From a virus: DNA of 50,770 nt. This document shows, piece by piece, positions 1,764 to 41,097 of this stretch. Each line of letters starts with the position of its first letter. Positions within the stretch are counted from its first letter, which is position 1. The notes beneath the pieces are model-generated. The model was given only the letters and a program-made list of their open reading frames with translations, ran no database searches and was not told the origin of the DNA. Location: positions 1 through 50,770 of IMG/VR virus record IMGVR_UViG_3300025617_000034; one strand, 5' to 3'. Made by a program: the position numbers and the translations under genes.

Positions 1764-3002
1764 ATGGCATCTATAATTAAACTAAAAAGAAGCACCACGC
1801 CGGGTGCTATTCCCACCACTGGGTCACTAGAAGCAGGTGAATTGGCAATCAACCTTGCTGATAAAAAACTTTATTCTTCAAACGATGGCACCAATATTAT
1901 TACCATCTCTGGTGATCAGTATAACCTAAACACAACAGGCAATACCTCATCAGCAACTTTAGAACTTTCAGTTGACAATGATGCACTATCAAATGATTCT
2001 GTAACATTCATTGGTCAATCTGGTGTTATCGTTTCTTACTTCTCTGGCAATAATACTATCGGAATCGATGGTGCAGGTGCTAACGCATACTTTGCAGAAG
2101 TAACACGAAAGTTAGAAGAAGGTAAAGAGTTCTTCATCACTGGTGCGGTATCAGGTCAAGGCAACGTTGCGTTTGATGGCACATCAAACGTTGTAATCAG
2201 TGTTACTCAACAGAACGACTCGGTAACCCTCGGTACTCACACTACTGGTGATTATGTCCAAAGTGTTGCGTCCAAGTCAGGTGGCACAGGTGACATTATT
2301 GTTACTGGAACTGGTGAAGGTGCAGATGTTGAAATTGAACTCGATGGTACCATCTCATCAAACACCACTGGTAATGCGGCAACAGCAACTAAACTTGCTA
2401 CTGCACGTACAATTGCTCTCTCAGGTGATGTTTCGGCAACTGGTGTATCGTTTGACGGTTCTGGTAACATCACTCTCACTACTGCGATTCAGAACGACAG
2501 TGTTGACCTCGGTACTCATACTACTGGTGACTATGTTGCAGACATCTCTGGTACTGCAAACGAAATCGAAGTTTCTGGAACTGGTGAAGGTGCATCTGTT
2601 ACAATCGGATTACCGGATGATGTAACGATTGGCAATAACCTTACAGTCACTAATGATCTCCTTGTTTCTGGTAACACACAGGTTTCTGGTGATGTAATCG
2701 TTGACGGTAACCTCACTGTTGAAGGTGCTGTTACTTACATCTCATCAACCACTGTAAACGTTGAAGACTCACAGTTAAAACTTGCGGCAAACAATGTTGC
2801 TGATACAACTGATATCGGTGTATATGGTTTGTATAACGATGGTTCAACTGACCGTTATGCGGGTTGGCATCGTGACGCAACTGATGGTGTATTCAAGTAC
2901 TATGACAACATCACGGTAGAACCGGGTGTAACTGTTGATACATCAGATGCATCGTATCGACTCGCACAGTTGGATGCAATCATCGACGGTGGTACTTTCT
3001 AA
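1764..3002 (+). CDS. Tail-fibre-like protein with GELAINLAD N-terminal module
   Basis: A 412-residue fibre protein. The N-terminus (MASIIKLKRSTTPGAIP, then LEAGELAINLADKKLYS, residues about 1-50) is a widespread attachment module of phage fibres. The middle is built of beta-rich repeats, including two copies of a SVxLGTHTTGDYV segment followed by related 'SGTGEGAxVxI' segments at about residues 152-195 and 245-280. The C-terminal part (about 285-412) has NLTVTNDLLVSGNTQVSG and a terminal domain ending AQLDAIIDGGTF. It is followed by a strong terminator and preceded by its own late promoter, so it is probably a separate unit. Inferred role: trimeric host-contact fibre or short tail protein; receptor unknown. 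Confidence 0.75.
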   Translation: MASIIKLKRSTTPGAIPTTGSLEAGELAINLADKKLYSSNDGTNIITISGDQYNLNTTGNTSSATLELSVDNDALSNDSVTFIGQSGVIVSYFSGNNTIGIDGAGANAYFAEVTRKLEEGKEFFITGAVSGQGNVAFDGTSNVVISVTQQNDSVTLGTHTTGDYVQSVASKSGGTGDIIVTGTGEGADVEIELDGTISSNTTGNAATATKLATARTIALSGDVSATGVSFDGSGNITLTTAIQNDSVDLGTHTTGDYVADISGTANEIEVSGTGEGASVTIGLPDDVTIGNNLTVTNDLLVSGNTQVSGDVIVDGNLTVEGAVTYISSTTVNVEDSQLKLAANNVADTTDIGVYGLYNDGSTDRYAGWHRDATDGVFKYYDNITVEPGVTVDTSDASYRLAQLDAIIDGGTF

Positions 3003-3048: not shown

Positions 3049-3096
3049 AGTATATAACTCCCTACATAGGGATTGATCAGTAGAGAAACCATACAT

Positions 3097-4116
3097 ATGG
3101 CATCGGTTGTTAAAATCAAACGCACCTCCATATCGGGGCGTTATCCAAATACAAGCATCCTCGATACTGGGGAACTCGCACTAAACCTTGCAGATGGAAA
3201 ACTCTTTTCGTCTAACGGTTCTGTTGTATTTGAGATTGGTGCTAATACTTCTACTCTTACGGTCAATAACTATTCTTTCCCAACCACAGATGGTACGTCT
3301 GGACAACTACTCCGCACAAATGGTGCAGGTCAGTTAGAGTTCGTATCTGTCGCAGGTGCTTCAACACCAACTCTTGAAGAAGTCGTTTTATCTGGTAATA
3401 CCACAACTCTTTCTGTAACAGTTGGTGGACTGACTGTCAATGGATATTCATTCCCATCTGGTGACGGTACTGCAGGTCAAGTATTACAAACAGACGGTAA
3501 TGGGCAGTTAGTATTTGGTACTGTCTCTGCAGGTGGTGGTGTCGGTGGTGCTACTCCATTCTCAATGTACTACTATACATCGACAACAGATCAGACAACA
3601 TTCTCTGGTGTCGATGATGAAGGCAACACTCTAGAATACGACGAAGGACAAGTCAAGGTATTCTACAACGGTGTTCTAATGAGAGATGGTGTTGACTATG
3701 TTGCCAACACTGGATCATCAGTTGTATTTACAGAACCAACTGTCGCAGACAAAGATATCATTATTGAATCTTATGGATATGTCGAATCAATTCAGGTCGG
3801 TTCCAACTATGTACTTGCCGCAACCGAAGCATTAACTTCTGGAACCTCACAAATTGTTCTCGATTCATTTGATGAGAACACACATAAGTCTGCGCAGTAT
3901 CTTGTCGAAGCAAGTGATACGACTGGTGTGCACATGACTACTGTCAATTTAATTCATCATGCAAATACAGTGTATCTCACAGAGTATGGAACTGTACAAA
4001 GTGGTAACTCAATGATTTCTTTGGATGCAGATATTGCGAGTGGCAATATTCGATTGCTTTGTACACCATCTGCATCTGGTATCACTATCAATGTTAAACG
4101 ATCAAGTTTTAGGTAA
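3097..4116 (+). CDS. Tail-fibre-like protein, paralogue of the upstream fibre N-terminus
   Basis: 339 residues from the ATG at 3097. An in-frame TTG eight codons upstream is less likely, because ATG-initiated MASVVKIKRTS aligns with the MASIIKLKRST start of the fibre gene at 1764. Residues about 1-50 repeat the GELALNLADGKLFS module. Two related blocks follow (NNYSFPTTDGTSGQLLRTNGAGQLEF and NGYSFPSGDGTAGQVLQTDGNGQLVF split around residues 65-150), then a domain with a YNGVLMRDGVDYV segment typical of fibres. The C-terminal about 100 residues (HKSAQYLVEA to NVKRSSFR) are homologous to the next gene product. Probably an adhesin; no enzyme motif. Confidence 0.75.
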   Translation: MASVVKIKRTSISGRYPNTSILDTGELALNLADGKLFSSNGSVVFEIGANTSTLTVNNYSFPTTDGTSGQLLRTNGAGQLEFVSVAGASTPTLEEVVLSGNTTTLSVTVGGLTVNGYSFPSGDGTAGQVLQTDGNGQLVFGTVSAGGGVGGATPFSMYYYTSTTDQTTFSGVDDEGNTLEYDEGQVKVFYNGVLMRDGVDYVANTGSSVVFTEPTVADKDIIIESYGYVESIQVGSNYVLAATEALTSGTSQIVLDSFDENTHKSAQYLVEASDTTGVHMTTVNLIHHANTVYLTEYGTVQSGNSMISLDADIASGNIRLLCTPSASGITINVKRSSFR

Positions 4117-4121
4117 TCGGC

Positions 4122-4493
4122 ATGGCAAAATCTAGTGCAAGACATCTCGCAGATATTCAAGACTTCTTCTATGGAGGTGGGGAAACCCCTGCAATGGAAA
4201 AAATATATTACACTTCAAGTACGACTAGTCAACAGACCATAACTAGTATAAATAAAACGACAGCAAATACTTTTGTGTTTAAGGTGGATGCAAAGAGTGG
4301 AGTGGACAGTCACCTCACACTGCTCAATGTTCTTGTGAACGGAAATACGGTCACGATGACAGAATATGGTACAATTACAAGCAATACAGATCTAGCATCG
4401 TATGATGTTAGTGTCTCCGATAATGCGATTAACTTGAGATCAACTCCTGTCAATGCGGCAACAGAATATAGTATAATAAAGGTTACACTATAA
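4122..4493 (+). CDS. Small structural protein related to the C-terminal domain of the preceding fibre
   Basis: 123 residues, starting five bases after the previous stop. After a short basic/aromatic N-terminus (AKSSARHLADIQDFFYGGG), the remaining about 90 residues match the last domain of the upstream fibre in order: TTANTFVFKVDAKSG, HLTLLNVLVNGNTVTMTEYGTI, then ASYDVSVSDNAINLRSTP. The upstream fibre has VNLIHHANTVYLTEYGTV, then SGNIRLLCTPSASG. This suggests that a fibre tip domain was duplicated into a stand-alone protein. It may bind the tip of the neighbouring fibre or be an alternative tip; this is inference. Its stop overlaps the next ATG (TAATG). Confidence 0.65.
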   Translation: MAKSSARHLADIQDFFYGGGETPAMEKIYYTSSTTSQQTITSINKTTANTFVFKVDAKSGVDSHLTLLNVLVNGNTVTMTEYGTITSNTDLASYDVSVSDNAINLRSTPVNAATEYSIIKVTL

Positions 4494-5728
4494 TGGCAAA
4501 TATAACACTTCCAAGCAATCCTGTCAATGGTCAAAAGGTCACCATCGGCACACGTCTGTTTGAATACAATTCAACAACAGGAAGGTGGTCATCAAGAGTT
4601 TTTCAAGTCCTCGGTGACACTTCAATTGAAGTCACGAACGAAGCACCAACCATCACTGCGTCTCTGAGTGAGATTGCACTAGACACTTCAGGTGCCAATG
4701 TATCATTCACATATACAGTGAGTGATGTCGATAGTTCTGTATTGAAAGTATCACACAGTGTCTCTGGTATTGCAAACAGTGACCTTGCAACAGTCACTCA
4801 TCATCGTGCGAATAACACGGTGACCATTACCGCAGGAACAGAAAATTTTTCTGGTGGACAGATTACATTGACTGTCACTGATGGTCGCAACAATGCGACG
4901 GATACAGTAGATGTCAATTCGGCATATCCTTGGACATTTGATATTGACAATTTGACTTACGATAGCATTTCTGGGAACAGAAATTTGTTTGTTGCTGCTG
5001 GTGCGGGCAATATTGTTGATATAGAATTTAAAACTGATGGAACTAAACTTTTTATATTTGATGATGATCACAACATATACCAATTCAGTTTATCAACACC
5101 TTGGGATATATCAACTCTTTCATATGACAGTATAAGTTGGAAAGGCACATCGGTGACTAATCCGTATGGATTCACTTTCAAACCGGATGGAACTGAAATA
5201 TATGTGGCAGATTACCAACTTCATTATATTTATCATTATTCTCTATCTACTGCATGGGATTTATCAAGTGTTTCTGGAAGTTTTACATCAAGATTTAGAG
5301 ATCTAAACGAGGCTCAATACCCAACCGATGTAGCATTTAAAACAGATGGAACAAAAATGTATGTTAAAGCCGATAATTTTGACGATACGATTTTTCAATA
5401 CACTTTGTCTACCCCTTGGAATGTTGGTTCCGCAACTTATGATTCTAAGAGTTTATATGTTGAACCTGAAGACGCCAGTTCCGCATACTTCCAATTTGAC
5501 GAACAAGGGACAAAAATTTATGTTTCTGGAATTAGTAATGATTCAATTAATCAATATAATTTATCGACACCTTGGGATATTTCTACTGCAACATACTCCA
5601 ACAAAACATTTTATCCTAACACGCAAGATGGCATTCCTCAAGGGTTTGCTATAAAATCAGATGGAACCAAGTTTTATCTGGTCGGCGGATCAAACGATAT
5701 AATATTCCAATACTCAACGGGATTATAA
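4493..5728 (+). CDS. Tail adhesin: MAN-TLPSNP anchor, Ig-like domain, 'DIST' beta-propeller
   Basis: 411 residues. Residues 1-35 (MANITLPSNPVNGQKVTIG, then YNSTTGRWSSR) form an N-terminal module shared with the next two genes, presumably the attachment to the tail. Residues about 45-150 look like an Ig/cadherin-like beta domain. Residues about 160-411 are five repeats of the pattern 'F..DGTK.Y(V/I)......I.QY.LSTPWDIST', a beta-propeller-type repeat also found about twenty times in the protein at 15955. It starts on the stop of the previous gene and ends three bases before the next, so it is in an operon. Probable receptor-binding protein; no catalytic residues are evident. Confidence 0.7.
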   Translation: MANITLPSNPVNGQKVTIGTRLFEYNSTTGRWSSRVFQVLGDTSIEVTNEAPTITASLSEIALDTSGANVSFTYTVSDVDSSVLKVSHSVSGIANSDLATVTHHRANNTVTITAGTENFSGGQITLTVTDGRNNATDTVDVNSAYPWTFDIDNLTYDSISGNRNLFVAAGAGNIVDIEFKTDGTKLFIFDDDHNIYQFSLSTPWDISTLSYDSISWKGTSVTNPYGFTFKPDGTEIYVADYQLHYIYHYSLSTAWDLSSVSGSFTSRFRDLNEAQYPTDVAFKTDGTKMYVKADNFDDTIFQYTLSTPWNVGSATYDSKSLYVEPEDASSAYFQFDEQGTKIYVSGISNDSINQYNLSTPWDISTATYSNKTFYPNTQDGIPQGFAIKSDGTKFYLVGGSNDIIFQYSTGL

Positions 5729-5730
5729 TA

Positions 5731-7347
5731 ATGGCAAACTTAACATTCCCAAGTAATCCAACAAACGGTCAAAAGTTTACCTCTAACGGTAAAGTATTTG
5801 CATACGACTCAACCACACAGAGATGGTCAGTGACTCGTGTGCAGTTGTTGGGTTCGTTGCCAGATGATGTGACGATTGAAACACCGGACCTGACACTTGA
5901 TAATACTGCAATTTCGTTTTCAGCAACAGGAACAACAGTATACGTTCACTATACAGTTAGTAATGATGTATCAGTTTCGATTGCGAACAATGGTCTTGCG
6001 AACACCGACTATGCAGTTGCAACTTTATCAAGGTCAAACAACACAATTACAATTACATCAGGGACATTAGATTTTTCTTCTGCAAACGTGGTTGTGACTG
6101 CGACTAACAACAGAACAAGCAATACTGCGTCTATTAATTTGAGTCAAGCAATTGTAATTGATTATACAACTCTTTCATACGGAAGTGAAGAAGTAGGATT
6201 TAGTTTTGGTGCAATTTCTCCAAGTGGTACATATTATGCCGCTTATCTCGGTACTGCCGACGGTGGTAGTGTTAAAATTTTTAGTGATGCCAATGATTCT
6301 ATAATAACTCTCGGTGGTGATGTTGGAGGTGATACGGCCCGAAGATTTGGTTCTGGAGGTATAAAATTTATTACTGATAATCAGGTTGTGATTGATGCCA
6401 GAAACAGTTTCAATGCGTGGGCAGGTGGAACATCAAACTACGGGCACTATATCTTTAAAACAACTGACAACTGGGCAACTGCGATTCAAACATTTAAAAG
6501 TTTATCTAATGCAAACACACCGTCAGGATCAGGTGGTCGTTACGGATTCACAGGAGGACATTACTCTAGTAACGGTTCTTTTGCAGTACTAGGAAATAGA
6601 TTATACAATACAACAACCACAACGCAATCTCCTACTTCTGGTGCAATTTTGTACTGGAAATCTACAAATGGTGGGGAAACATTTGCAAATACTCCTCATC
6701 AAATCATCGAAAATAAAACCAGAACTGGAGTTGTTTATGATCCTGATCGTGAACAGTTTATTGTCGGTAATAGTCTAGCATCTTCAGGTCAAGGTCGAGC
6801 ATATGTCTATAAGTATAATGACGGTGCCGACATCTATCAAAATAAAGCAACGTTATCTAAGAGTGACACTGGTACCAACACTGGTTATGGAGATTATGTA
6901 TTTTTAAGAAAAAATACCGCTATAGTAGGTGCTCGGAACCACTCTAGCGGACGTGGCAGAGTGTACATATACGAAAGAGACGATGCAGATTCAGCATTTT
7001 CTCAAACTGCATACCTGCAAGGACCGCACACGGATTCATACTTTGGTCAAGCATTGTGGATATCAAACGATGGTGATACTATTGCAGTTGCCGCTCCAGA
7101 CTGGAACGTTGGTAGTGGTACTTATCCGGACAACCAAGGAAAAGTATTTTTTTATGTTAGGGACACCTCTACAGGAAATTTCCCAACCACTGCAACATTT
7201 GAGATCGCTGGAAGATATACAGTTCCATCTTACACTGGAGCAGGAACGAATCCTCGATTTGGTTCTAGAATTGTCGAAGATCCAAGTAGTGCAAACAAAC
7301 TATGGATTTCATATGGCAGTAAAGGAATGATATTGTATGAAGTATAA
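5731..7347 (+). CDS. Tail adhesin: MAN-TFPSNP anchor with BNR/FG-GAP-like propeller
   Basis: 538 residues. The first 35 residues (MANLTFPSNPTNGQKFTSNG, then YDSTTQRWSVTR) repeat the anchor of its neighbours, followed by an Ig-like region to about residue 145. The C-terminal about 390 residues resemble a beta-propeller: an Asp-box-like STNGGETF at about residue 311, and FG-GAP-like strings such as SYFGQALWISNDGDTIAVAAP near residues 432-452. Asp-box motifs occur in sialidases but also in non-enzymatic propellers. No sialidase catalytic set can be identified, so I call it an adhesin. It is second of three tandem paralogues with interchangeable C-termini. Confidence 0.7.
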   Translation: MANLTFPSNPTNGQKFTSNGKVFAYDSTTQRWSVTRVQLLGSLPDDVTIETPDLTLDNTAISFSATGTTVYVHYTVSNDVSVSIANNGLANTDYAVATLSRSNNTITITSGTLDFSSANVVVTATNNRTSNTASINLSQAIVIDYTTLSYGSEEVGFSFGAISPSGTYYAAYLGTADGGSVKIFSDANDSIITLGGDVGGDTARRFGSGGIKFITDNQVVIDARNSFNAWAGGTSNYGHYIFKTTDNWATAIQTFKSLSNANTPSGSGGRYGFTGGHYSSNGSFAVLGNRLYNTTTTTQSPTSGAILYWKSTNGGETFANTPHQIIENKTRTGVVYDPDREQFIVGNSLASSGQGRAYVYKYNDGADIYQNKATLSKSDTGTNTGYGDYVFLRKNTAIVGARNHSSGRGRVYIYERDDADSAFSQTAYLQGPHTDSYFGQALWISNDGDTIAVAAPDWNVGSGTYPDNQGKVFFYVRDTSTGNFPTTATFEIAGRYTVPSYTGAGTNPRFGSRIVEDPSSANKLWISYGSKGMILYEV

Positions 7348-7372
7348 TGTTTATTCAACAGGACTATAATCA

Positions 7373-9220
7373 ATGGCAAACTTAACATTTCCAAGTAATC
7401 CAACAAACGGACAGAAAGTCACAGTCAATGATAAGGTGTTCGTTTATAATTCTACGACTAGTCGGTGGACTGCAACTCGTCTTCAGGTTCTTGGTAATCT
7501 GACTGGTGACTTTACGATTCCTACTCCAGTGGTCACGTTGTCTGCGAACGGTCAAACTCTAAATTCTTTGTCTAATAATTATATCACATATTCTGTTGAT
7601 CAAGATGCAAAAATCACCATAGAAAATCAAACAACAAATGCGACTGCAGTCTTATATCTTTCGAATAATACAATTAAAATTGATCCATCTCTAAACGAAT
7701 TGACAAATGGTGTAATTAAAATTAACGCATCGAACGGACGAACTATCGGCACCGCAAACTATGTGTTTAGTATCGACAACCAAGCACCCTTTATCTCACT
7801 CGCAAACTCATTCTACGATGTTCCTACAGGTACTGCTGCGTTTGATGTCGTTGTTACTGGTACAGATCCAGAGAATCAACCACTTACATATTCTGCATCT
7901 GTGACCGGAGGTTATGCGAACGCTATTACTTCAATAACTCAATCTGCAAATGTATTCACTGTCACTGTTGCAAGTGATAATGCAAATGTAGGCAATGCAA
8001 TTGTTACATTTACTGTAGATGATGGTGTAGAAACTAAATCTGCAAATGTTAACTTCTATGTCTCTTCAGCTGTAATAGACTGGACTACAGTTACTGGCCA
8101 GCAGACTTTGACTGGAGTTTTAAACGATGGATTATTCGGAACCTCTGTCGCAATAGATGGTGACACTGCAGTAGTTGGAGCATCGGAAGAAAGAGCCGCA
8201 TACATTTATACTAGATCTGGATCAACTTGGACACAACAACAGAAGATTACTAACAGCACCAGTGGTTCTCAGTTCGGTAGTCAGGTTGCAATAGATGGAG
8301 ACACTCTTGTAATTGCGGCAAGGGGTGCGGCAACAGTTTTTGTATATACGAGATCAGGAAACACTTGGTCTCTACAACAATCATTTCAAGGATCGGATAG
8401 TGGATCTGGTACTTTTGGACAATCTATTGATATAGATGGAGATACCATTGCTGTGGGCGCATATTTCTTTAATGGGGGAGGATATAGTATAAGTGGTGCC
8501 GCATATATCTTCACTAGATCAGGTTCTACTTGGACACAACAACAAAGACTCCTAGCACCATCACCACAAAATAATGGATATTTTGGAACTACAATTGCAC
8601 TATCCGGAGATTCGGTCATTGTTGGTGAATTTGGAGATAATTCATTACAAGGTGCTGCGCATATATTTACACGATCAGGTTCTACTTGGAGTCACCAACA
8701 AGAAATTACTGCTAGTGGAGGAACCAATCCCGGCAATCGCAGATTCAGTATAAATTTAGATATTGATGGAGATACTGCAGTTGTTGGTGCTTATTATGAA
8801 AATTTTGGGTTTTCCCCAGTAAATACGGAAGCGGGTGCGGTGTACATCTTCACTAGATCAGGTTCTACTTGGACACAACAACAAAGAATTGGTTATGAGA
8901 GTATTGAATCTAATAAAAGTTTTGCTTATTTTGGTCAGTCAATTTCATTAGAAGGTGAAGTTGTTGCAATAGGATCTCCGTTTAGAAGTACTGAACCCTC
9001 TCCTCAATATGGAGGAGTACACATTTATAAAAAGGGAAGTGGATCCACTTGGACAAAACAGTCTTCCATTTCGACACTTAGTAGTGGAAATGATCAAACA
9101 TCTGGACAATTTGGTATATCTGTCGGTTTATCTGGTGACACAGTTATTGTAGGGGCGCGAAACGAAGTCGCAGTTACTGATAAAGGTCGAACACACATTT
9201 ATACTGGAGCAAGTTCATAG
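7373..9220 (+). CDS. Tail adhesin: MAN-TFPSNP anchor with seven FG-GAP repeats
   Basis: 615 residues. The anchor module (MANLTFPSNPTNGQKVTVND, then YNSTTSRWTATR) is nearly identical to that of the preceding gene. Residues about 45-230 are one or two Ig/cadherin-like domains (including FDVVVTGTDPENQPLTYSAS). Residues about 245-612 contain seven repeats of the form 'FG.S.(A/D)I(D/S)GDT..VGA...........YI(Y/F)TRSGSTWTQQQ', the FG-GAP repeat of integrin-alpha-type seven-bladed propellers. The repeat count matches a closed propeller. Predicted to be an extracellular binding protein at the virion tail; the ligand is unknown. Confidence 0.75.
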   Translation: MANLTFPSNPTNGQKVTVNDKVFVYNSTTSRWTATRLQVLGNLTGDFTIPTPVVTLSANGQTLNSLSNNYITYSVDQDAKITIENQTTNATAVLYLSNNTIKIDPSLNELTNGVIKINASNGRTIGTANYVFSIDNQAPFISLANSFYDVPTGTAAFDVVVTGTDPENQPLTYSASVTGGYANAITSITQSANVFTVTVASDNANVGNAIVTFTVDDGVETKSANVNFYVSSAVIDWTTVTGQQTLTGVLNDGLFGTSVAIDGDTAVVGASEERAAYIYTRSGSTWTQQQKITNSTSGSQFGSQVAIDGDTLVIAARGAATVFVYTRSGNTWSLQQSFQGSDSGSGTFGQSIDIDGDTIAVGAYFFNGGGYSISGAAYIFTRSGSTWTQQQRLLAPSPQNNGYFGTTIALSGDSVIVGEFGDNSLQGAAHIFTRSGSTWSHQQEITASGGTNPGNRRFSINLDIDGDTAVVGAYYENFGFSPVNTEAGAVYIFTRSGSTWTQQQRIGYESIESNKSFAYFGQSISLEGEVVAIGSPFRSTEPSPQYGGVHIYKKGSGSTWTKQSSISTLSSGNDQTSGQFGISVGLSGDTVIVGARNEVAVTDKGRTHIYTGASS

Positions 9221-9228
9221 GATACATA

Positions 9229-9291
9229 ATGGCAAACTCTAACTTCCCTTCTTGTATAAATAGAAGAAACAATCAGACCATTAACGGATAG
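9229..9291 (+). pseudogene. Relic of a fourth MAN-FPS adhesin N-terminus
   Basis: Directly after the FG-GAP adhesin, an ATG opens a 20-codon frame beginning MANSNFPS and stopping at TAG 9289-9291. The first codons (ATGGCAAAC..., then TTCCC(T/A)) match the starts of the three complete adhesin genes, and then similarity ends abruptly. It may be the stump of a deleted fourth cassette. Alternatively it is a coincidental short frame in a leader region, because the late promoter for the next gene lies within it. Confidence 0.4.
9255..9262 (+). promoter_or_regulatory. T4-type late promoter TATAAATA
   Basis: An exact octamer 41 bases upstream of the ATG of the 1929-residue fibre, followed by a GGATAGTAGGGAAG leader. 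The position is typical for a late promoter. Confidence 0.8.
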
Positions 9292-9303
9292 TAGGGAAGT
9301 TAG

Positions 9304-12300
9304 ATGGCAACTACGAAGCAGTTTCGTGTCAAGCACGGTCTTGATGCGTCCAATAATCTCATATCGCATGTCGCAACACCACAAAGTGCAACTGACGCTG
9401 CAAACCGTCAATTTGTAATTGATCAAGTCGAATCTGGTGTTAGTGGTGTTGCAAATACTTCTACATCTTCTGTCACTTGGACGAAAGCAAATAACACTCT
9501 TGAATTTACTCGTGATAATGCGTCAACTTTTGATGTTGTCCTCACCGATGTTGGTGAAGTATCTAATGCATACCTTACATCGACATTCACTACTAATACC
9601 GACTTCCAATCATTCGTCGCAAACACCAATGCGTACATTGCAACTGTCGAAGGGGATTTAAACACCCAAGAAGCAAAGCAAGCAAGTGATCTTGCAAACA
9701 CCAATGCGTACATTGCAACTAAAACTGACGACACCACTGTACTAGCAACCAATACAGCACTCAGAACACTCATTGATGATCGTATTCAAGTTGCTAATGC
9801 AACGTTACTGATTGATGATCGTATGCAAGTCGCAAACGTCATCTCGTATGTAGATACGGAAATTGCATCTCTTATCGACTCATCACCAACAACACTCGAC
9901 ACACTCAACGAACTTGCCTCTGCCCTTGGTGATGACGAAAATTTTGCAACGACAGTTACAACAAATCTTGGACAGAAACTTGGTGCGACTGCTACAGTCA
10001 CATTAACAGGTGATGTCACTGGTTCAGGTTCATTTAGTTCAAACGCAGTATCGATTGCATTGACCGATACTAACCTTGCGAATACTAATGCATACATTGC
10101 GTCTGTGTCTGATGCACAATCACAGTATCTACAAGTTGCAAACGTCGCATCAAATACGTCAACATCAACCGCAACATTTACTTCTGGCAACAGTACAATC
10201 ACGTTCGCACGTGACGATAGTAGCACATACGATGTGAATTTGTCAACGTTTGCTATGGCAAATACTAGCACATCAACTGCGGTATATACTGTTGCGAACG
10301 CAACACTCACATTTACACGTGATGATTCTAGCACTTTCGATGTTGTCATTGATTCTGCGTCAGTCGAAGTTTCGAATACTGCACCTTCTGGAGCAAACGA
10401 AGGTGACATGTGGTGGGACAATGCTTCAGGTGAGTTGTACATTTATTACTCAAATAACTGGATTGAAGCAGTAGCACAAGACGTAACACCATACGCAAAT
10501 AACGGAACATTCAGTTCGTCTAACAATACGATCACATTTGTGCGTACAGATGGTTCACAGTTTGACGTAGTTCTCACGGGTGTAGGTGAAGTCACTAACA
10601 CTTATGTGACAAGTACATTTACTACCAACACTGATTTTCAGTCATTTGTTGCAAACACCAATGCATACATTGCAACTAAGACCGATGATACTACAGTCCT
10701 TGCGACTAACACAGCACTGCGTACATTGATCGACGACAGAATGCAGGTTGCTAATGTGCAGTCGTATGTTGCAACAGAAATTGCGGCATTGGTCAACTCT
10801 GCACCGACGACTCTGGACACACTTGATGAACTGGCATCAGCACTTGGTGACGATGCGAACTTTAGTACCACTGTTTTGACACTCATCGGCACTAAAGCAT
10901 CTAACTCCGCATTGACCAGTACCTATGTCACAAATACGGTATTTCAAAGTGCGTTAGCAAACACCAACAGTTATATCGCAACCAAGACAGACGACTCAAC
11001 GGTTCTTGCTACCAATACTGCACTAAGAACTTTAATCTCAGACAGAGTTCAAGTTGCTAATCTGAATACAACACTCGCAGACTATTGGCCGTCAGCAAAC
11101 GTAATTAACTACACTGCAAAGTATCTAGAGGTTGCAAATGTTGAAAGTTCTAGTATCTCTGTGTCAAACACCGCACCTTCAGGTGCAGAGGAGGGCAACC
11201 TCTGGTGGGACAACTCAACTGGTGAACTTTATGTTTACTATTCAAACAACTGGGTTGAAGCAGTAGCACAGGATGTTACACCTTATGCGAACAACGGCAC
11301 CTTCTCATCGTCGAATAATACAATTACATTTGTTCGTACAGATGGTAGTCAGTTTGATGTGGTATTAACAGGTGTTGGTGAAGTCACTAATGCTTATGTT
11401 ACAAGCACTTTCACAACAAACACAGTATTCCAGAGTGCTCTTGCTAACACTAACTTAGCAATCTCTGATAGGATGCAAGTCGCAAACGTTCAATCATACG
11501 TCGCGACTGAAATTGCCGCACTTGTTAATTCAGCACCAACTACACTAGATACATTAGATGAACTTGCGAATGCTTTAGGTGATGATGCAAACTTTAGTAC
11601 TACTGTTCTTACTTTGATTGGTACTAAGGCATCCAACTCTGCGTTGACTAGTTCCTATGTCACAAACACTGTATTCCAATCAGCACTTGCAAACACAAAT
11701 GCATACATTTCAAGTGTATCAGATGCTCAGAGTCAATATTTACAAGTTGCCAATACAACAGCACTTGTCGCACCTTACCTTGAGGTTGCTAACTCTGTTG
11801 ACTTCTTGGTACAATCTGATGTAGATCAGTATCTGCAGGTTGCTAACGTAGTTGCAACTGACCTGACTTCTTATTGGCCTAGTGCAAATGTAATTAACTA
11901 CACTGCAAAATATCTAGAAGTTGCAAATGTCGAAAGTTCTAGCATCTCTGTATCTAATACTGCTCCTGTCGGTGCCGAAGAAGGAAACCTCTGGTGGGAT
12001 AATTCTACAGGTGAACTTTATGTTTACTACTCAAATAATTGGGTTGAAGCAGTTGCACAAGACGTAACACCTTATACTAATAATGCATCGTACACATCTG
12101 GCAACAATACTATCACGTTTGTAAGAACTGATGGATCACAGTTTGATGTTGCACTCGACTTATCGAGTTTTGGTGGTGGTGATGTCACGAACACATATCT
12201 GACTTCAACATTTACTGCTAATTCAGACTTCCAGTCTTATGTAGCAAACACTAATGCGAGATTCCCATTATACCTTGAAGTCGCAAACAGCACAAACTTC

Positions 12301-15093
12301 TTGGTACAAGCAGATGTTAATCAATATCTTCAGGTTGCTAACGTATCTGGTTATGGATTCGCAACAGAAACATATGTTGACAATCAAGTTGCCGCATTGG
12401 TCAATGCCGCACCAACAACATTAAATACTCTTGATGAACTTGCCGCTGCTCTCGGTGATGATGCTAACTTTGCGACTAGTGTCACAACAACACTTGGTAC
12501 GAAGGCATCAAATACCTATGTAAATACACTGCTTGCAAACACAAACTCATATATTGCATCAGTTTCTGACGCACAAAGTCAGTATCTTCAAGTTGCTAAC
12601 AGCACTGGATTCTTAGTTCAGTCTGACGTAGATCAGTACCTACAAGTTGCTAACTCTACAAACTTCCTAGTTCAGTCTGATGTTGACCAGTACTTACAAG
12701 TTGCAAACATCGCAGGTTACATTCCTGCGAATACATCAACTGCCTCTGCATCTCTGACAGGTAATACAGTTACCTTTACTCGTGCGGATACTACAACCTT
12801 TGACTTAGATCTTTCTACTCTATCAACTGGAGGTGGGGCATCACTTGAAGTTGGTAACACTGCACCTGTCTCACCAACAGAAGGTGACCTCTGGTACGAT
12901 ACTGACACTGGTATTATCAACGTCTATGTAGGATCTGCGTGGGCAGAATCGACTGTTAGTTTCCCTGATTCATTGGTTGCATTCTCAAATACTGCTCCAT
13001 CTGCATTGACAGGTAAGTTGTGGTATGATACAGATACTGCAAGACTTTTTGCATACGATGGCAATGCTTGGGTACAAGTTGCAGAACCATTTGGTTCAGG
13101 TGGTGGAACTGGAGGCATCACACCGGGGTCAAATGCAGTATTAAACTTTGTTGATGCAAATACTGTCAACACTGGTGTATTGTCTGCAGATGACATCACA
13201 GTATCTTCCAACATTTCATTTAGTGACAACGCAACATTGTCATGGAACCCTGATGAAGGAACTTTAGATTTAGCATACGACGGTGTAGCATTACAAATTG
13301 GTCAAGAGCAACATTTCTACGGAAAGGCAACAGAAAACATCAATGACGGTGAGGTTGTCATGTTCGCAGGTGTTCAAGGTGGACACGTATTGTTTGCAAA
13401 GGCAGATCAGAACTCTGTTGGATTTATTCCAGAATATGTGCTAGGTGTTGCAACACAAAACTTACTCAACAATGAGTTTGGATATGTCACAGCATTCGGT
13501 AAAGTGCGAGGAATTGATACTCGTAATTACGGAGAAGGAGCAACTCTCTACTTATCCGGAACTACCGCCGGAGCATTGAGCAATACTTCTCCAGTGTATC
13601 CTTCACATTCTATATTGATCGCTTCATCATTAAACTCAACTCCCAATGGAACAATTCTTGTTCGAATAAGTCATAGAGATGATCTGGATGAACTGCATAA
13701 CGTCGACCCGTCAGGAAAAGCAAATAATGATGTTCTTTTCTGGAATGCCTCTACCAATAAATGGCAAGCATCTAATGCATATGCGACAAAGACATATGTA
13801 GACACCTCTGTTGCGGCATTGGTTAACAGTGCTCCTGAAACACTGAATACATTAGTTGAATTGTCAAATGCACTTGGAAACGATGAGAACTACGCAACGA
13901 CTACTGCGACTTTGATTGGTTCTAAAGCAAGTAATACTTATGTTAATACACTGCTTGCCAATACTAATGATTACATTGCGAGTGTCTCTAGTGCTCAAAG
14001 TCAATACCTGCAAGTTGCAAATAGCACAAACTTCTTGGTACAAGCAGATGTAGATCAGTATCTACAGGTTGCTAATAGTTCATCGTTCTTGGTACAAGCA
14101 GATGTTGATCAATATCTTCAGGTTGCAAATAGCACAAACTTCTTGGTTCAGTCTGATGTAGATCAGTATCTACAGGTTGCTAATAGTTCATCGTTCTTGG
14201 TACAAGCAGATGTTGATCAATATCTTCAGGTTGCTAATGTTTCAGGATACATTCCTGCAAACACAAGTACAACTAGTGCATCACTAACTGGCAACACTGC
14301 AACGTTCACACGTGCTGATAGTTCTACGTTTACTTTAGATCTGTCTGGGATCGCATCCGCAGGTGGTGGAGGTGGTGCTTCTGTCACAGTTGCGAATACT
14401 GCACCTGTGTCACCAACAGAAGGTGATCTGTACTTTGACAATGAACTTGCAACGATGTTTATCTATTATGACAGTTCATGGGTAGAAGTACAACCAACCA
14501 TTGATCCAGTCAATCCATTGACGTATGGTCTTAGTACATTCACTGCAAACGGAACTGCAACAGACTTTACACATACGTCAGATACAGTAAGTGCAGATGC
14601 AATGCTTGTGACTGTTGATGGTATTATTCAAAGACCAACAACAGATTACACAGTATCAAATAAGACAGTAACATTTGGAACAGCACCTTCTGATACTAGT
14701 ATTGTCGCAGTTCGTGTTACGACAGGTGCATTTACTGGTGTTAGTAACGCAACGTTCCAATCGGCACTGGCAAATACAAATGCATACATTGCTTCTGTCG
14801 CACCATCTTATTTTGAAGTCACATCAAACACGACAATGAGTGCAGGAACTAAATACATAGTAGGAATAAGAACCGCAAACGTTGTATTGACATTCCCGAC
14901 TTCAGCATCACTTGGTGACGAGATTACAATTATAGATGGTACTGGACAAGCAAACACTTTTGGAATTGAATTGAATAGAAACGGTCATAGAATTCAAGGT
15001 GGTTTAGCAAATGTCGTCATTGATACATCACGTGCCGCAGGTGGTTACGTGTACTATAATGCTAACAACGGATGGATATTAACAGAGGTCTAA
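9304..15093 (+). CDS. Giant repetitive long tail fibre (1929 residues)
   Basis: The N-terminus (MATTKQFRVKHGLDASNNLI, then VATPQSATDAANRQFV) is the typical start of long tail fibres. Most of the chain is repeats. One class is about 18 residues (STNFLVQSDVDQYLQVAN). Another is a set of larger blocks combining 'P.G..EG.LWWDNSTGELY.YYSNNW.EA', 'TPYANNGTFSSSNNTITF', 'LRTLIDDRMQVANV' and 'APTTLDTLDELA.ALGDD'. Residues about 1339-1460 form a distinct domain (HFYGKATENINDGEVVMFAG). The last about 90 residues form a tip domain ending GGYVYYNANNGWILTEV. The length exceeds T4 gp34 (about 1290). Probable proximal or whole long fibre, trimeric, reaching toward the cell surface. It is co-transcribed with the short gene two bases downstream. 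Confidence 0.8.
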   Translation: MATTKQFRVKHGLDASNNLISHVATPQSATDAANRQFVIDQVESGVSGVANTSTSSVTWTKANNTLEFTRDNASTFDVVLTDVGEVSNAYLTSTFTTNTDFQSFVANTNAYIATVEGDLNTQEAKQASDLANTNAYIATKTDDTTVLATNTALRTLIDDRIQVANATLLIDDRMQVANVISYVDTEIASLIDSSPTTLDTLNELASALGDDENFATTVTTNLGQKLGATATVTLTGDVTGSGSFSSNAVSIALTDTNLANTNAYIASVSDAQSQYLQVANVASNTSTSTATFTSGNSTITFARDDSSTYDVNLSTFAMANTSTSTAVYTVANATLTFTRDDSSTFDVVIDSASVEVSNTAPSGANEGDMWWDNASGELYIYYSNNWIEAVAQDVTPYANNGTFSSSNNTITFVRTDGSQFDVVLTGVGEVTNTYVTSTFTTNTDFQSFVANTNAYIATKTDDTTVLATNTALRTLIDDRMQVANVQSYVATEIAALVNSAPTTLDTLDELASALGDDANFSTTVLTLIGTKASNSALTSTYVTNTVFQSALANTNSYIATKTDDSTVLATNTALRTLISDRVQVANLNTTLADYWPSANVINYTAKYLEVANVESSSISVSNTAPSGAEEGNLWWDNSTGELYVYYSNNWVEAVAQDVTPYANNGTFSSSNNTITFVRTDGSQFDVVLTGVGEVTNAYVTSTFTTNTVFQSALANTNLAISDRMQVANVQSYVATEIAALVNSAPTTLDTLDELANALGDDANFSTTVLTLIGTKASNSALTSSYVTNTVFQSALANTNAYISSVSDAQSQYLQVANTTALVAPYLEVANSVDFLVQSDVDQYLQVANVVATDLTSYWPSANVINYTAKYLEVANVESSSISVSNTAPVGAEEGNLWWDNSTGELYVYYSNNWVEAVAQDVTPYTNNASYTSGNNTITFVRTDGSQFDVALDLSSFGGGDVTNTYLTSTFTANSDFQSYVANTNARFPLYLEVANSTNFLVQADVNQYLQVANVSGYGFATETYVDNQVAALVNAAPTTLNTLDELAAALGDDANFATSVTTTLGTKASNTYVNTLLANTNSYIASVSDAQSQYLQVANSTGFLVQSDVDQYLQVANSTNFLVQSDVDQYLQVANIAGYIPANTSTASASLTGNTVTFTRADTTTFDLDLSTLSTGGGASLEVGNTAPVSPTEGDLWYDTDTGIINVYVGSAWAESTVSFPDSLVAFSNTAPSALTGKLWYDTDTARLFAYDGNAWVQVAEPFGSGGGTGGITPGSNAVLNFVDANTVNTGVLSADDITVSSNISFSDNATLSWNPDEGTLDLAYDGVALQIGQEQHFYGKATENINDGEVVMFAGVQGGHVLFAKADQNSVGFIPEYVLGVATQNLLNNEFGYVTAFGKVRGIDTRNYGEGATLYLSGTTAGALSNTSPVYPSHSILIASSLNSTPNGTILVRISHRDDLDELHNVDPSGKANNDVLFWNASTNKWQASNAYATKTYVDTSVAALVNSAPETLNTLVELSNALGNDENYATTTATLIGSKASNTYVNTLLANTNDYIASVSSAQSQYLQVANSTNFLVQADVDQYLQVANSSSFLVQADVDQYLQVANSTNFLVQSDVDQYLQVANSSSFLVQADVDQYLQVANVSGYIPANTSTTSASLTGNTATFTRADSSTFTLDLSGIASAGGGGGASVTVANTAPVSPTEGDLYFDNELATMFIYYDSSWVEVQPTIDPVNPLTYGLSTFTANGTATDFTHTSDTVSADAMLVTVDGIIQRPTTDYTVSNKTVTFGTAPSDTSIVAVRVTTGAFTGVSNATFQSALANTNAYIASVAPSYFEVTSNTTMSAGTKYIVGIRTANVVLTFPTSASLGDEITIIDGTGQANTFGIELNRNGHRIQGGLANVVIDTSRAAGGYVYYNANNGWILTEV
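10486..11391 (+). repeat. Protein-identical, codon-scrambled repeats within the long fibre
   Basis: Positions 10486-10599 and 11278-11391 encode the same 38 residues (starting TPYANNGTFSSSNN). By my count they use different synonymous codons at 20 of 38 positions, including AGT/TCA serine switches and CTC/TTA leucine. Further related copies lie downstream around 12070. Confidence 0.85.
14023..14238 (+). repeat. Four tandem 54-bp units (two near-identical 108-bp repeats)
   Basis: Four consecutive 18-codon units (14023, 14077, 14131, 14185) encode S(T/S)(N/S)FLVQ(A/S)DVDQYLQVAN. Units 2 and 4 differ at one base, and units 1 and 3 differ only in a GTACAAGCA/GTTCAGTCT stretch. The higher-order period is therefore 108 bp, pointing to a recent duplication. 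Confidence 0.9.
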
Positions 15094-15589: not shown

Positions 15590-15955
15590 ATGGCAAATCC
15601 AAACATAGTAAACGTAAGCACAATCAGTGGAAAAACAAATGCAGTCGTTGCAAATGTCGCACTGACTACGGCATGCGCAAATCCAGTTTCTTCCGGAAAA
15701 ATTTTCAAAGTCAATGCAATTTCTTTAGCAAACAAAACGACTTCAACGACGGAAGTAACTTTACAGTTTCAAGACTATTCTCAATCAAACGCAACTTTTA
15801 ATATTGCAAAAACGATCGATGTGCCATCAGAATCTACTATTTTTGCTATAGATAAAAATACTGCTATCTACTTAGAAGAGGGTGATGCTATTGTCTGTAG
15901 TGCTGTTTCCGGTTCTTCAATTGATGTTATTGTAAGTTTTGAGGAAATCTCTTAA
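15590..15955 (+). CDS. Small structural protein, function unknown
   Basis: 121 residues, 12 bases after the previous gene and overlapping the next ATG (TAATG). It is beta-rich with no charged tail: NPIVNVS-like start (MANPNIVNVSTISGKTNAV), a SLANKTTSTTEVTLQFQDYS segment and an acidic end (VIVSFEEIS). The regular alternation of polar and hydrophobic residues suits a small beta-sandwich, such as a fibre or baseplate decoration domain. I do not recognise a family with certainty. The context (between two fibre proteins, in an operon) supports a virion role. Confidence 0.55.
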   Translation: MANPNIVNVSTISGKTNAVVANVALTTACANPVSSGKIFKVNAISLANKTTSTTEVTLQFQDYSQSNATFNIAKTIDVPSESTIFAIDKNTAIYLEEGDAIVCSAVSGSSIDVIVSFEEIS

Positions 15956-18900
15956 TGGCAAGACAACTCGGAAAGTTTATTGGTACCCAACAAGTATCTG
16001 CTAACAACTCATCATTCAGTGGGATTATTAATAACTTAGATACACTTGCTCGTCTGAAAAAAGATTTTAGTATACCTTCTGCCAATCCGGGTATTGTTGA
16101 TAAGTTTTTGATCGCAGAAGGACAACTTGAAGAAATATTTGATCGTTCTCGTTTTATGGCAAATTATGGGTATGGTGCTAACGACATTATTTTTAGTGAC
16201 GATGGAACTAGAGTATATTTTCTAGACGATACTGATGTTATCACGCAATATCGATGCAACATTGCCGGAAGTGTCGAAAGACTTGTTTGTACAGGACAGT
16301 TTGATTTAGCAGATCCAGATCACCCTAATTGGTTTATGGGTGACGCAGGATACGCAGAAACAGCACCACGGTCAATCGCATTCGGTAATAATGGTTATAA
16401 ATTCTATCTCGTCGGTGATGTTAATCCAGACTACATCAATGAATTCGATCTAACAACTCCTTGGGATTTGAATACTGCAACTTGGGTTAGAAAGTTCGAT
16501 TGGGGTGCTTATCAATCGATTCAGTTTAATTCTGATGGCACAAAGGTTTACACATCGTCTCCCAGTGCCGCTAATATTATTCTTCAGTGGAGTCTTTCAA
16601 CTGCTTGGGATGTTTCAACAATAACATTAGACAGTGGTGTTAATCTCAATAGTTTCTATGATGGAGTTGTGTCAGATCATCAATTCAAACCAGATGGCAC
16701 CAAATTATATGTCAGTCATTATGACTACACTTTTATTGATGAAATTGATCTGACAACTGCATGGGATTTATCAACTGCAGTTTTCAATCAAAGATTATCT
16801 CTCGTCGGTACAGATGGTTTGATGAACTACCATAAATTTGCACTCAATCCAGATGGCGATAAACTAATTATTTCAACCTCATCGCAAGTGCAACAATTCG
16901 ACTTAGAAACACCTTGGGATATTTCTACAGCAAATCTGTTACACAAAAAAGATAGAATTGTTATGGAAACCCTTGCACGTCAAAATGGATATATCAGTCG
17001 TGATGGGCATCATGCATATACAGTTCATATTACTGGTGATGATACTTATAAATCTACAGTATTTCAATGGTATATAGATAATGCATGGGAAACACAATAT
17101 ATGTCTCTCACAGGCAAATATCTAGACATTACAGATTTACAAGATGACATTGATTATATTTCTTTCGTCTGGTTCAAAGATGATGGAACAAAAATGTGGA
17201 TTGGTTCTTATTTAAATGATCAGATATGGGCATTCGACATTGCAACTCCATTTGACATTTCAACTGCAACATATGCAAACGAGACATTTTATGTAGGATC
17301 TCAAGAAACTGGTCCTCGTCATATGTTCATTGGTGACAGTGGTTCTAAACTGTACGTTATTGGAACGACTGGTGATGACATCACAGAATACTCATTAAGC
17401 ACTGCATATGATATTTCAACTGCAACTCACGTGACTCAAGTGACTGTTGCAAGTACTGCAACTATGGGAATCACATTCGATAACACTGGTGCTTATGTTT
17501 ATCTTGTGGATTACACTCCTGATTTAATCTACAGGTACACATTAACAACTGCTTGGGATCTTTCTACATTAGATACTGGTACAGTACAAACGGTCACTGC
17601 TAGATATCAAGTCGGAACATCTTCTTATCTAGATGAAAGAACACCGTATGGTTTACAATTATCGTCCGATGGAACAAGAATGGTTGTTATCGGTGATTAT
17701 AGAGATAACTTTGTAAGTTATACTCTTTCCCCTGCGTGGGATTTATCAACTGCATCAATGGATATTGTTGATCAGACTGGAACATTTACAACGAATACAC
17801 AGAATCCTTACCGATATACAACTGCGATTGATGCGAATCAAGACTTCACAACATTTTATGTTGCTGATACAATTAAAGAGAGTATATTCCAATATAATCT
17901 AAGTTCTAATACATCGATGATGAATGTATCGAATGTTTATCATTTCTCTGTTCTGTCAGAAACTAATGATCCAATTGGTCTACAATTAAAACCAGATGGA
18001 ACTGAAATGTATGTGATGCACAATGGTGGAAATATATTCACATATACACTATCAACTCCATGGGACATTCGAACTGCTACAGTTAATGCATCCAAACAGA
18101 GTTCATCTCTTGGTTCTAGTGGATTTAGAATTGTTAACAATGGAACTCAATTGATTGCAACAGACGATAGTCCAGATGAGGTGCAGTCATACACATTATC
18201 GACTGCATGGGATTTGAGTACTGCAGTTATCGACACTAATAACCAATTAGCACTGCACAATCAAAATCGCAGAGGTCCGTTTATGAGCACTGATGGAACC
18301 AAATTGTATTTCCATCAATTTAATGATAATTGGATGATACAATATGACCTCGCAACTGCTTGGGATCTCTCTTCTGCAAACACATCTTATGTGAAATATT
18401 ATGTTCCTGACGAATGGCACGGAACACTTGGCGTCGGTTCTATTTTTAATCAGTCTGGCAACACAATGTATCATTTACTTTCAACGAGTGGACAGAATTG
18501 GTTCAGTCGTGGAGCAGACTCTATTATTAGAAGAGAGTTGAGTACTCCTTGGGAATTGAATACGGTTCAACATCCATATTATGACGTTGTAGATAGTGGT
18601 GATTATTTCTGGCAATATGTGAAACATCCTGAAAATGATGATCAATATTTTATTCTGAGTAATGATGGAGACTTGAGACACATCGATCAAGAGAATAGAT
18701 ATCAAATTGCTGTTGTAAATTTCAAAGCACTTGGTCGTGTAATTAATGCACATGGTTTTAATTTTAAATCAGATGGAACGGGTCTATACATTGTCGACAG
18801 TAATAAATGTTCTATTGATTATTATACACTAAGCACTGCATGGGATATCACAACTCATGATTATCAATACAGTGTTACAGATATATTTGCTCAAACTTTT

Positions 18901-34212: not shown

Positions 34213-34761
34213 ATGGCATTTAATGTAAATGAGTTTGCAGGAGCACTAAAACTTGGTGGTGCTCGTAACTCACTTTTCCAAGTGCAGATTACGAACCCCA
34301 TCAATGGTGTCGCAGACGTACAAGTGCCATTCCTATGCAAAGCAGCGCAAATTCCCGCAGCTACATTGGGTGTGATTGAAATTCCATATTTCGGTCGTAC
34401 TATTAAGCAAGCAGGAAATCGTACCTTTGCGGAATGGGCACCAACAATCATCAACGACGAAGACTTTGCAGTTCGTAATGCGATGGAACAATGGTCAGGA
34501 ACAATCAACTCGTTTCAAGGAAACTTGAATAACGCAGGTGGTTCTAATGCATCATTGTATAAATCGAATGCGACGGTCACACAATATAGTAAGACTGGTG
34601 ACATCTTGCGTGTATATAATTTTGTAGGCATCTTTCCATCTGAAGTTAGTTCAATTGATCTTTCATGGGATGCAGAAACTATTGAAGAATACACCGTTAC
34701 ATTCCAGTACGACTATTGGGAAGTAGTTGGTGGTACCACTGGTAACGCCGGTGGCATCTAA
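34213..34761 (+). CDS. 19: Tail tube protein gp19
   Basis: 182 residues (T4 gp19 is 163). Conserved tube signature: FLCKAAQIPAATLGVIEIPY, then FGRTIKQAGNRTFAEW and INDEDFAVRNAMEQWSGTIN (about residues 35-98), and a C-terminal VTFQYDYWEV. It polymerises into the inner tail tube. It lies between the sheath and portal genes exactly as in T4. A perfect hairpin that overlaps the next promoter follows it. Confidence 0.92.
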   Translation: MAFNVNEFAGALKLGGARNSLFQVQITNPINGVADVQVPFLCKAAQIPAATLGVIEIPYFGRTIKQAGNRTFAEWAPTIINDEDFAVRNAMEQWSGTINSFQGNLNNAGGSNASLYKSNATVTQYSKTGDILRVYNFVGIFPSEVSSIDLSWDAETIEEYTVTFQYDYWEVVGGTTGNAGGI

Positions 34762-40572: not shown

Positions 40573-41097
40573 ATGGCAGTACAAATAACTCAACCAGACA
40601 ATACTAGTTTTCTAGCACCCACTGGATTTCAGTTTAGTATCCAGAAACTACCTCATGTCAACTACTTTTGCTATTCGGCAAATATTCCAGATATGACACT
40701 AGGTCAAGTTGATAGTGTCACCAACACTTTTATTAAGTTGCCTGTGCCGGGTGATAAACTCCAGTTTGGTGCACTAAGTGTTCGTTTTCGTATCGATGAA
40801 GATTTGCGCAACTATAAAGAGATCTATGATTGGATGACAGGACTTGGATACCCAGACAACTTTGATCAGTCTGTCGCAATCCGTACAGGTATTCAAGCAC
40901 AAGGACAAGTATACTCTGATGCCACTCTATTGATCAATACCGCATCAAATAGACCGAATGTACAGGTGTCATTCGTTGATGCATATCCAGTATCTCTATC
41001 TGCATTGCAGTTCGATGTCTCACAGGCAGACATCACATATCTGGAAGCAGATGTGAGTCTGGTGTATCGTAAGTATAATATTGACATTATTCAGTAA
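40573..41097 (+). CDS. Second tail-tube-family protein (possible gp3 tail-completion equivalent)
   Basis: 174 residues. FLAPTGFQFSIQKLPHVNYF, then CYSANIPDMTLGQVDSV, LPVPGDKLQFGALSVRFRID and DLRNYKEIYDWMTGLGYPDN follow the same plan as gp19 (NIP..TLG, then P..GD/AG, then nD+d..+...+W). This suggests a tail-tube fold, either a paralogue of gp19 or the terminator of the tube. In marine T4-like phages the gene between gp23 and uvsY is, as I recall, labelled gp3. T4 gp3 is 176 residues, which fits. I do not assign the symbol firmly. Confidence 0.6.
   Translation: MAVQITQPDNTSFLAPTGFQFSIQKLPHVNYFCYSANIPDMTLGQVDSVTNTFIKLPVPGDKLQFGALSVRFRIDEDLRNYKEIYDWMTGLGYPDNFDQSVAIRTGIQAQGQVYSDATLLINTASNRPNVQVSFVDAYPVSLSALQFDVSQADITYLEADVSLVYRKYNIDIIQ

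Follow-up and report, generated by a model that had tools for sequence, protein, structure and literature searches.

Putative tail adhesin genes in tandem, with a common anchor and mosaic heads, in a marine T4-like virus

The stretch of DNA analysed here (the window) is the 50,770-nt virus record IMGVR_UViG_3300025617_000034, a 50.8-kb fragment from a marine T4-like virus of bacteria. Three genes, designated A, B and C, were found starting at 4493, 5731 and 7373, where the original prediction had placed them, and are flanked by a small gene on the left and a long fibre-like gene on the right, with a fourth head-bearing gene further downstream:

4122–4493, + strand: left-edge small gene (MAKSxAR..AD family), overlapping the start of A by 1 nt
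4493–5728, + strand: gene A, 411 aa; anchor, beta linker and DIST-repeat propeller
4493–4612, + strand: anchor of A, residues 1–40
4937–5725, + strand: head of A, residues 149–411; five DIST repeats, propeller
5731–7347, + strand: gene B, 538 aa; anchor, beta linker and divergent, partly FG-GAP-like head
5731–5850, + strand: anchor of B, residues 1–40
6730–7173, + strand: FG-GAP-related part of the B head, residues ~334–481
7373–9220, + strand: gene C, 615 aa; anchor, two beta linker domains and FG-GAP propeller
7373–7492, + strand: anchor of C, residues 1–40
8078–9217, + strand: head of C; seven FG-GAP_2 repeats, integrin-alpha-like propeller
9255–9262, + strand: late promoter TATAAATA upstream of the right-edge gene
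9304–15093, + strand: right-edge long fibre-like gene, 1929 aa, KxFxxKHGL start
15955–21351, + strand: gene 15955, 1798 aa, fourth head-bearing gene of the cluster

Family searches of open reading frames identified a series of T4-type late genes in the window, at the following positions:

25067: head-tail adaptor Ad2 (gp13-type)
25811: gp14-type neck protein (T4_neck-protein)
29311: tail sheath stabilizer
30138 and 30562: terminase subunits
32282: sheath
34830: portal
37325: protease
38026: scaffold
39159: major head protein
41138: UvsY

The major head protein was 63–69% identical to its counterparts in Stenotrophomonas phage DLP6, Methylophilales phage Melnitz, pelagiphages and cyanophages, and no DNA similarity between the window and deposited phages was detected at the ‘distant’ search setting. 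Two different genes of the tail-tube family (34213–34761 and 40573–41097, both phrog_45) are present in this same genome. The array lies upstream of Ad2 and the neck protein, and the left boundary of the cluster falls outside the window. As in host recognition clusters, gene content is variable and non-syntenic between related phages; the neighbouring genes 1764 and 3073 matched tail fibre families (PHROGs), and Laminin_G heads occur in relatives. Homologues of the left-edge gene 4122 were found in the same position in five other loci (L037, L056, L124, L125 and L126).

The neighbours 1764–3002 and 3073–4116 adjoin each other and carry another common N-terminal module (44% over ~67 residues, of the KLKRS..G..P..GSLEAGELAINLADKKLYS type) followed by different remainders, a pattern that recurs in many related loci. 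Overall, neighbouring genes with a common N-terminal stretch and a differing remainder were observed in 31 of 124 sequences (the 1764/3073 pair included), some of the 124 coming from the same contigs or from near-identical phages.

The first 40 residues of A, B and C, referred to here as the anchor, are 58% identical between A and B, 62% between A and C and 75% between B and C, and a direct search recovered exactly three occurrences of the anchor start in the record. Pairwise BLASTP alignments of the common start gave E values of 1e-21 to 9e-43. The common N-terminal module that had been proposed is real, but its end at residue ~35 was placed too early: homology runs on through a ~100-residue, all-beta linker (residues ~41–145) with 24–38% identity among the three proteins, and C has a second domain of the linker type (residues ~137–232). 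Third codon positions at identical anchor residues match in only about one third to two thirds of cases, a level of agreement that marks the anchor copies as old. Structural models of the A and C anchors predict three short strands (residues 15–18, 21–26 and 31–36); model confidence is low for residues 41–136 of C. These regions would best be explained as putative beta-rich, Ig/cadherin-like stalks. The anchor matched no family in Pfam and gave weak matches (E 2–9) in the phage database.

The head of A is built of five DIST repeats of ~52 residues each and resembles YVTN/NHL propellers; its model is closest to Pizza6/NHL propellers (Z 17.2, 209 residues, 3.2 A), and a Foldseek search with the model returned generic propeller matches only. 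Relatives of this head were found in a Lentibacter podovirus, in roseophages and in cyanophage S-SKS1, all with other N-termini. Lentibacter podovirus ICBM2, for instance, is 41% identical to A from residue 129 onwards, with an unrelated start ahead of it, and matches in unrelated phages begin at residues 129–139, which is the linker/head joint. Gene 15955 carries many DIST repeats, which would make up several consecutive propellers, and is 30% identical to A over 272 columns. In L015 and L016, FG-GAP (C-type) and DIST (A-type) regions are found together in single chains of ~1250 aa.

The head of C comprises seven FG-GAP_2 repeats (Pfam E 3.9e-54), the full set of a closed FG-GAP/integrin-alpha-like propeller, and the C model is closest to the propellers of integrin alpha (Z 37.4, 342 residues, 2.9 A). 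It would have the seven-bladed fold of the integrin alpha subunit, also matched at the level of sequence profiles (E 9e-9); structural identity is 19–20%, C is a phage protein without an integrin partner, and this modelled similarity of fold does not demonstrate a function. The head of B holds one FG-GAP Pfam repeat only (E 2.5e-5), an FG-GAP profile match over ~140 columns (E 8e-9) and one Asp-box-like motif. Nothing useful emerged from a PDB sequence search with the B head, no relatives of B were found in viral contigs or phage records, and outside the array B gave weak FG-GAP matches and no other relative. Of the three propeller types originally claimed, two are clear, the DIST type of A and the seven FG-GAP repeats of C; B instead has a divergent head that is related to FG-GAP in part.

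The T4-type late promoter core TATAAATA occurs 12 times in the window, always on the + strand, against 3.0 expected, a count reached in 0 of 100 shuffles. Near the array it is located at 4247 (within the left neighbour) and 9255 (ahead of the right neighbour), and no late promoter was found between A, B and C. The genes are co-directional, separated by 2 nt (A–B) and 25 nt (B–C), and the last base of the left neighbour, 4493, is also the first base of A. From this tight spacing, without internal late promoters, we infer a single transcript and simultaneous synthesis; the three proteins are probably made together.

Around the right-hand promoter, a 15-nt inverted repeat (9238–9304, 93%) pairs the Shine-Dalgarno and start region of gene 9304, placing the promoter in the loop of the hairpin (RNA fold z −3.06). 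By analogy with T4 genes e and soc, such a hairpin would block transcripts that read through and leave late ones free. Pairing at the equivalent place was also seen in some relatives (L125 and L131). Directly after C, a stretch of 23 nt (9226–9248) is 83% identical to the start of B and opens a 20-codon frame (MANSNFPS...), possibly the remnant of a fourth cassette, or else a product of chance.

We refer to A, B and C as adhesins on the grounds of their domains and location. Proteins that carry tail fibre or tail annotations in cyanophage S-H34 and Vibrio phage D181 also have starts of the form MAxxFPxNPxxGxxYxxxxxxYxWxxxxW, a resemblance at the level of E 2–9 in the database search, and the S-H34 proteins lie in the same region, ahead of Ad2 and Hc2. 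Ig-like stalks are typical of Hoc and tentaclins (PMC10743442), and A, B and C might instead decorate the head, as Hoc-like Ig-stalk proteins loosely attaching virions to cells, particles or gels. Such a role is unlikely given the annotations in S-H34 and D181, the tail fibre families matched by the neighbouring genes, and the excerpted text of PMC7029224, in which the corresponding cluster of related phages is their tail fibre region. Location on the tail is the reading preferred here.

Recombination breakpoints at the end of the anchor, as anticipated by the original prediction, were revealed in L037 by conflicting anchor and linker trees. This locus is syntenic with the window (homologues of 549, 1764, 3073 and 4122, followed by an adhesin gene) and is on the same contig as L042 and L049; it breaks off within the first gene of the slot (the interval bounded by the MAKSxAR gene and the long fibre gene), so that no exact counterpart of all three genes was seen. 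The anchor of that gene is A-like (70% to A, 60% to C), and its linker (59% to C, 24% to A) and the start of its FG-GAP region are C-like. With the boundary fixed beforehand at residue 40, following the earlier proposal, maximum likelihood trees grouped (A,L037)|(B,C) for the anchor (AU p = 0.013 for the alternatives, from 40 residues and one relative) and (C,L037)|(A,B) for the linker (AU p < 0.002 for the alternatives). Nucleotide site patterns also differed between anchor and linker (p = 0.0005 in Fisher test). Either heads moved between anchors or the anchors of B and C were homogenised, and each of these uncouples anchor from head.

A second joint is apparent between linker and head. In the three consecutive genes of L001, the glycine-rich one is 86% identical to its neighbours over nt 1–684, past which its head is unrelated to their FG-GAP heads. 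Two tandem genes in L125 have 186 residues in common (62%) and then differ. The LamG head of L126 gene 15743 corresponds to that of L125 gene 10368 (59–81% aa over three segments), the starts being different (32–36%) and the two genes lying on opposite sides of the long fibre gene. L132 gene 17405 matches L124 gene 16890 over 186 residues (70%), and its head is related instead to the C-terminus of window gene 15955, whose C-terminal domain is thereby common to an NFP-anchor gene of L132 (35%). A conserved N-terminal anchor with an exchanged C-terminal domain is the arrangement of modular receptor-binding proteins.

Ordinary paralogy, with two duplications of an ancestral adhesin followed by divergence of the copies and no swapping of heads, would account for homology through both anchor and linker with gradually falling identity, and for the distant relationship between the heads of B and C. 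It accounts poorly for the head of A, which comes from another family and whose matches in unrelated phages start at the linker/head joint, for the conflict between anchor and linker trees, and for the sharp breaks in L001; we consider it quite unlikely, and exchange of heads the better reading.

Whole genes appear to be gained and lost in addition. Four phages have 3, 2, 1 and 0 adhesin genes in the slot: three in the window, two (LamG) in the L125 contig, one (LamG) together with two enzyme genes in the L126 contig, and none in the L124 contig, where two NFP-anchor genes are located past the long fibre gene. Promoter and start of L124 gene 18032 and L125 gene 11647, on opposite sides of the fibre gene, agree at 93% over 59 nt. 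Two closely related phages, L131 and L132 (flanking genes 90–98% identical), differ by one complete 465-aa NFP-anchor adhesin gene whose flanks are 92–98% identical; in L132 this gene is bounded on both sides by the 22-nt repeat ATTATAAATAGAGACATAATTA (17356 and 18827), which includes the late promoter, and L131 has a single copy of the repeat (10921) without the extra gene. Recombination between the repeats would leave this pattern; in these metagenome contigs, misassembly at a 22-nt repeat is a residual possibility.

The enzyme genes in the L126 slot (10206–11500) were named by eye as nucleotidyltransferase-like and UDP-sugar-dehydrogenase-like, and genes named likewise by eye are present in the slots of L128, L131 and L132. 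They are reminiscent of the surface-modification genes of host recognition clusters.

Searches for syntenic loci returned 1 and then 6 loci with the left-edge gene and 4 with the right-edge gene. Among 80 loci reached via gene 549–1373, most had other downstream gene orders and no counterpart of the array, and in L046, L051 and L053 the slot was absent altogether. Several loci come from shared contigs (L126/L132; L058/L124/L130; L062/L125/L129), and independent cases are fewer than locus numbers. The gene set varies in relatives, as opposed to an invariant set of three without exchange at the anchor junction; together with the L037 trees and the sharp breaks in L001, this variation bears out the cassette series with common anchor and exchanged heads that had been proposed.

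The accompanying idea of a host-range switching system fared worse: that alternative heads are brought to one anchor by inversion, site-specific recombination or a diversity-generating retroelement is very improbable, for although the 54-nt common 5′ sequence of A, B and C (72–78% identity) could in principle be a recombination target, these repeats are too diverged to point to recent intragenomic exchange, the closely spaced genes are each complete from start to stop and all point in one direction, inverted repeats in the array are short and only 73–93% complementary, and neither a recombinase nor a reverse transcriptase was found among the scanned, annotated ORFs of the window. Because the genes are co-directional and neither switching machinery nor good inverted repeats were found, exchange appears to be evolutionary rather than programmed.

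Probably, then, these are tandem modular tail adhesins in a host recognition cluster, with heads and whole cassettes exchanged by recombination over evolution. Demonstrated grounds for this reading are the common module, the head types, the mosaicism, the variable gene number and the gain and loss of cassettes in relatives. Mechanistically, the N-terminal beta module would dock each protein to the tail or baseplate, and a beta-rich stalk would carry the C-terminal head, which would bind the host surface. The tightly packed genes would probably be co-expressed late, and the virion would most likely display several heads at once. Recombination, presumably by the phage’s own UvsY-dependent system (a UvsY gene is present), would swap heads at two joints, the anchor end and the stalk end, and add or remove whole genes, with copies of the late-promoter sequence as the recombining sites at least once. 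Judged from sequence, a multi-receptor role of the array is plausible.

More tentatively, the late promoter and anchor start (ATTATAAATAGAG...) may serve as recombination handles, such that an adhesin gene is exchanged as a unit and the heads are displayed together, a proposal that we regard as possible but doubtful. If true, such handles would allow adhesins to be added, deleted and given new heads in marine T4-like phages, each virion thereby displaying a standing library of heads.

Head exchange is a known means by which phages keep pace with host surfaces as these change, and the usual cases involve one or two fibre genes in a phage. Both joints are visible in this natural array, as are its components, a short anchor followed by a stalk and an interchangeable head; the heads are of FG-GAP and DIST type in the window and of LamG, glycine-rich and other types in relatives. 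How abundant marine phages keep and renew several host-binding proteins becomes testable, and anchors and late promoters serve as markers by which further arrays can be located in metagenomes.

The host recognition cluster of pelagimyophages and cyanomyophages (Zaragoza-Solas et al. 2020; PMC7029224) extends from VrlC to gp14 and is described, in the excerpted text, as a hypervariable region that contains tail fibres along with carbohydrate-binding domains and, in relatives, genes for cell-surface synthesis. The array probably likewise belongs to a hypervariable structural island ahead of the neck gene gp14; that excerpt covers the island and its domains, without tandem common-anchor genes, two exchange joints or late-promoter-bounded cassettes. 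Modular receptor-binding proteins of Klebsiella phages and T7/K1F (PMC6872550) similarly combine a conserved N-terminal anchor with exchanged heads, the C-terminus being exchanged horizontally, and with several such proteins per virion. Their heads are mostly depolymerases, and those of one virion dock via different elements (T4gp10-like branching, conserved peptides), whereas the array consists of three adjoining paralogues with one anchor type and propeller heads. Tentaclins and Hoc-like adhesins (PMC10743442) also place a lectin-type head on an Ig-like stalk, but the tentaclin head is at the N-terminus (the opposite polarity) and is a DGR target; neither a reverse transcriptase nor a C-type lectin was found among the scanned proteins of the 50.8-kb fragment. 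T4-like fibritin (PMC3797505) resembles the array in its C-terminal domain exchange, sometimes with Ig-like domains, and differs in being one collar gene with old, fixed swaps, as compared with several tandem genes and recent swaps in relatives. Head exchange at modular receptor-binding proteins is already known, and this array is a finely resolved form of it; what appears to be new, at the sequence level, is a one-anchor tandem array whose heads are propellers, exchange at two joints, and a cassette event with late promoters at both ends.
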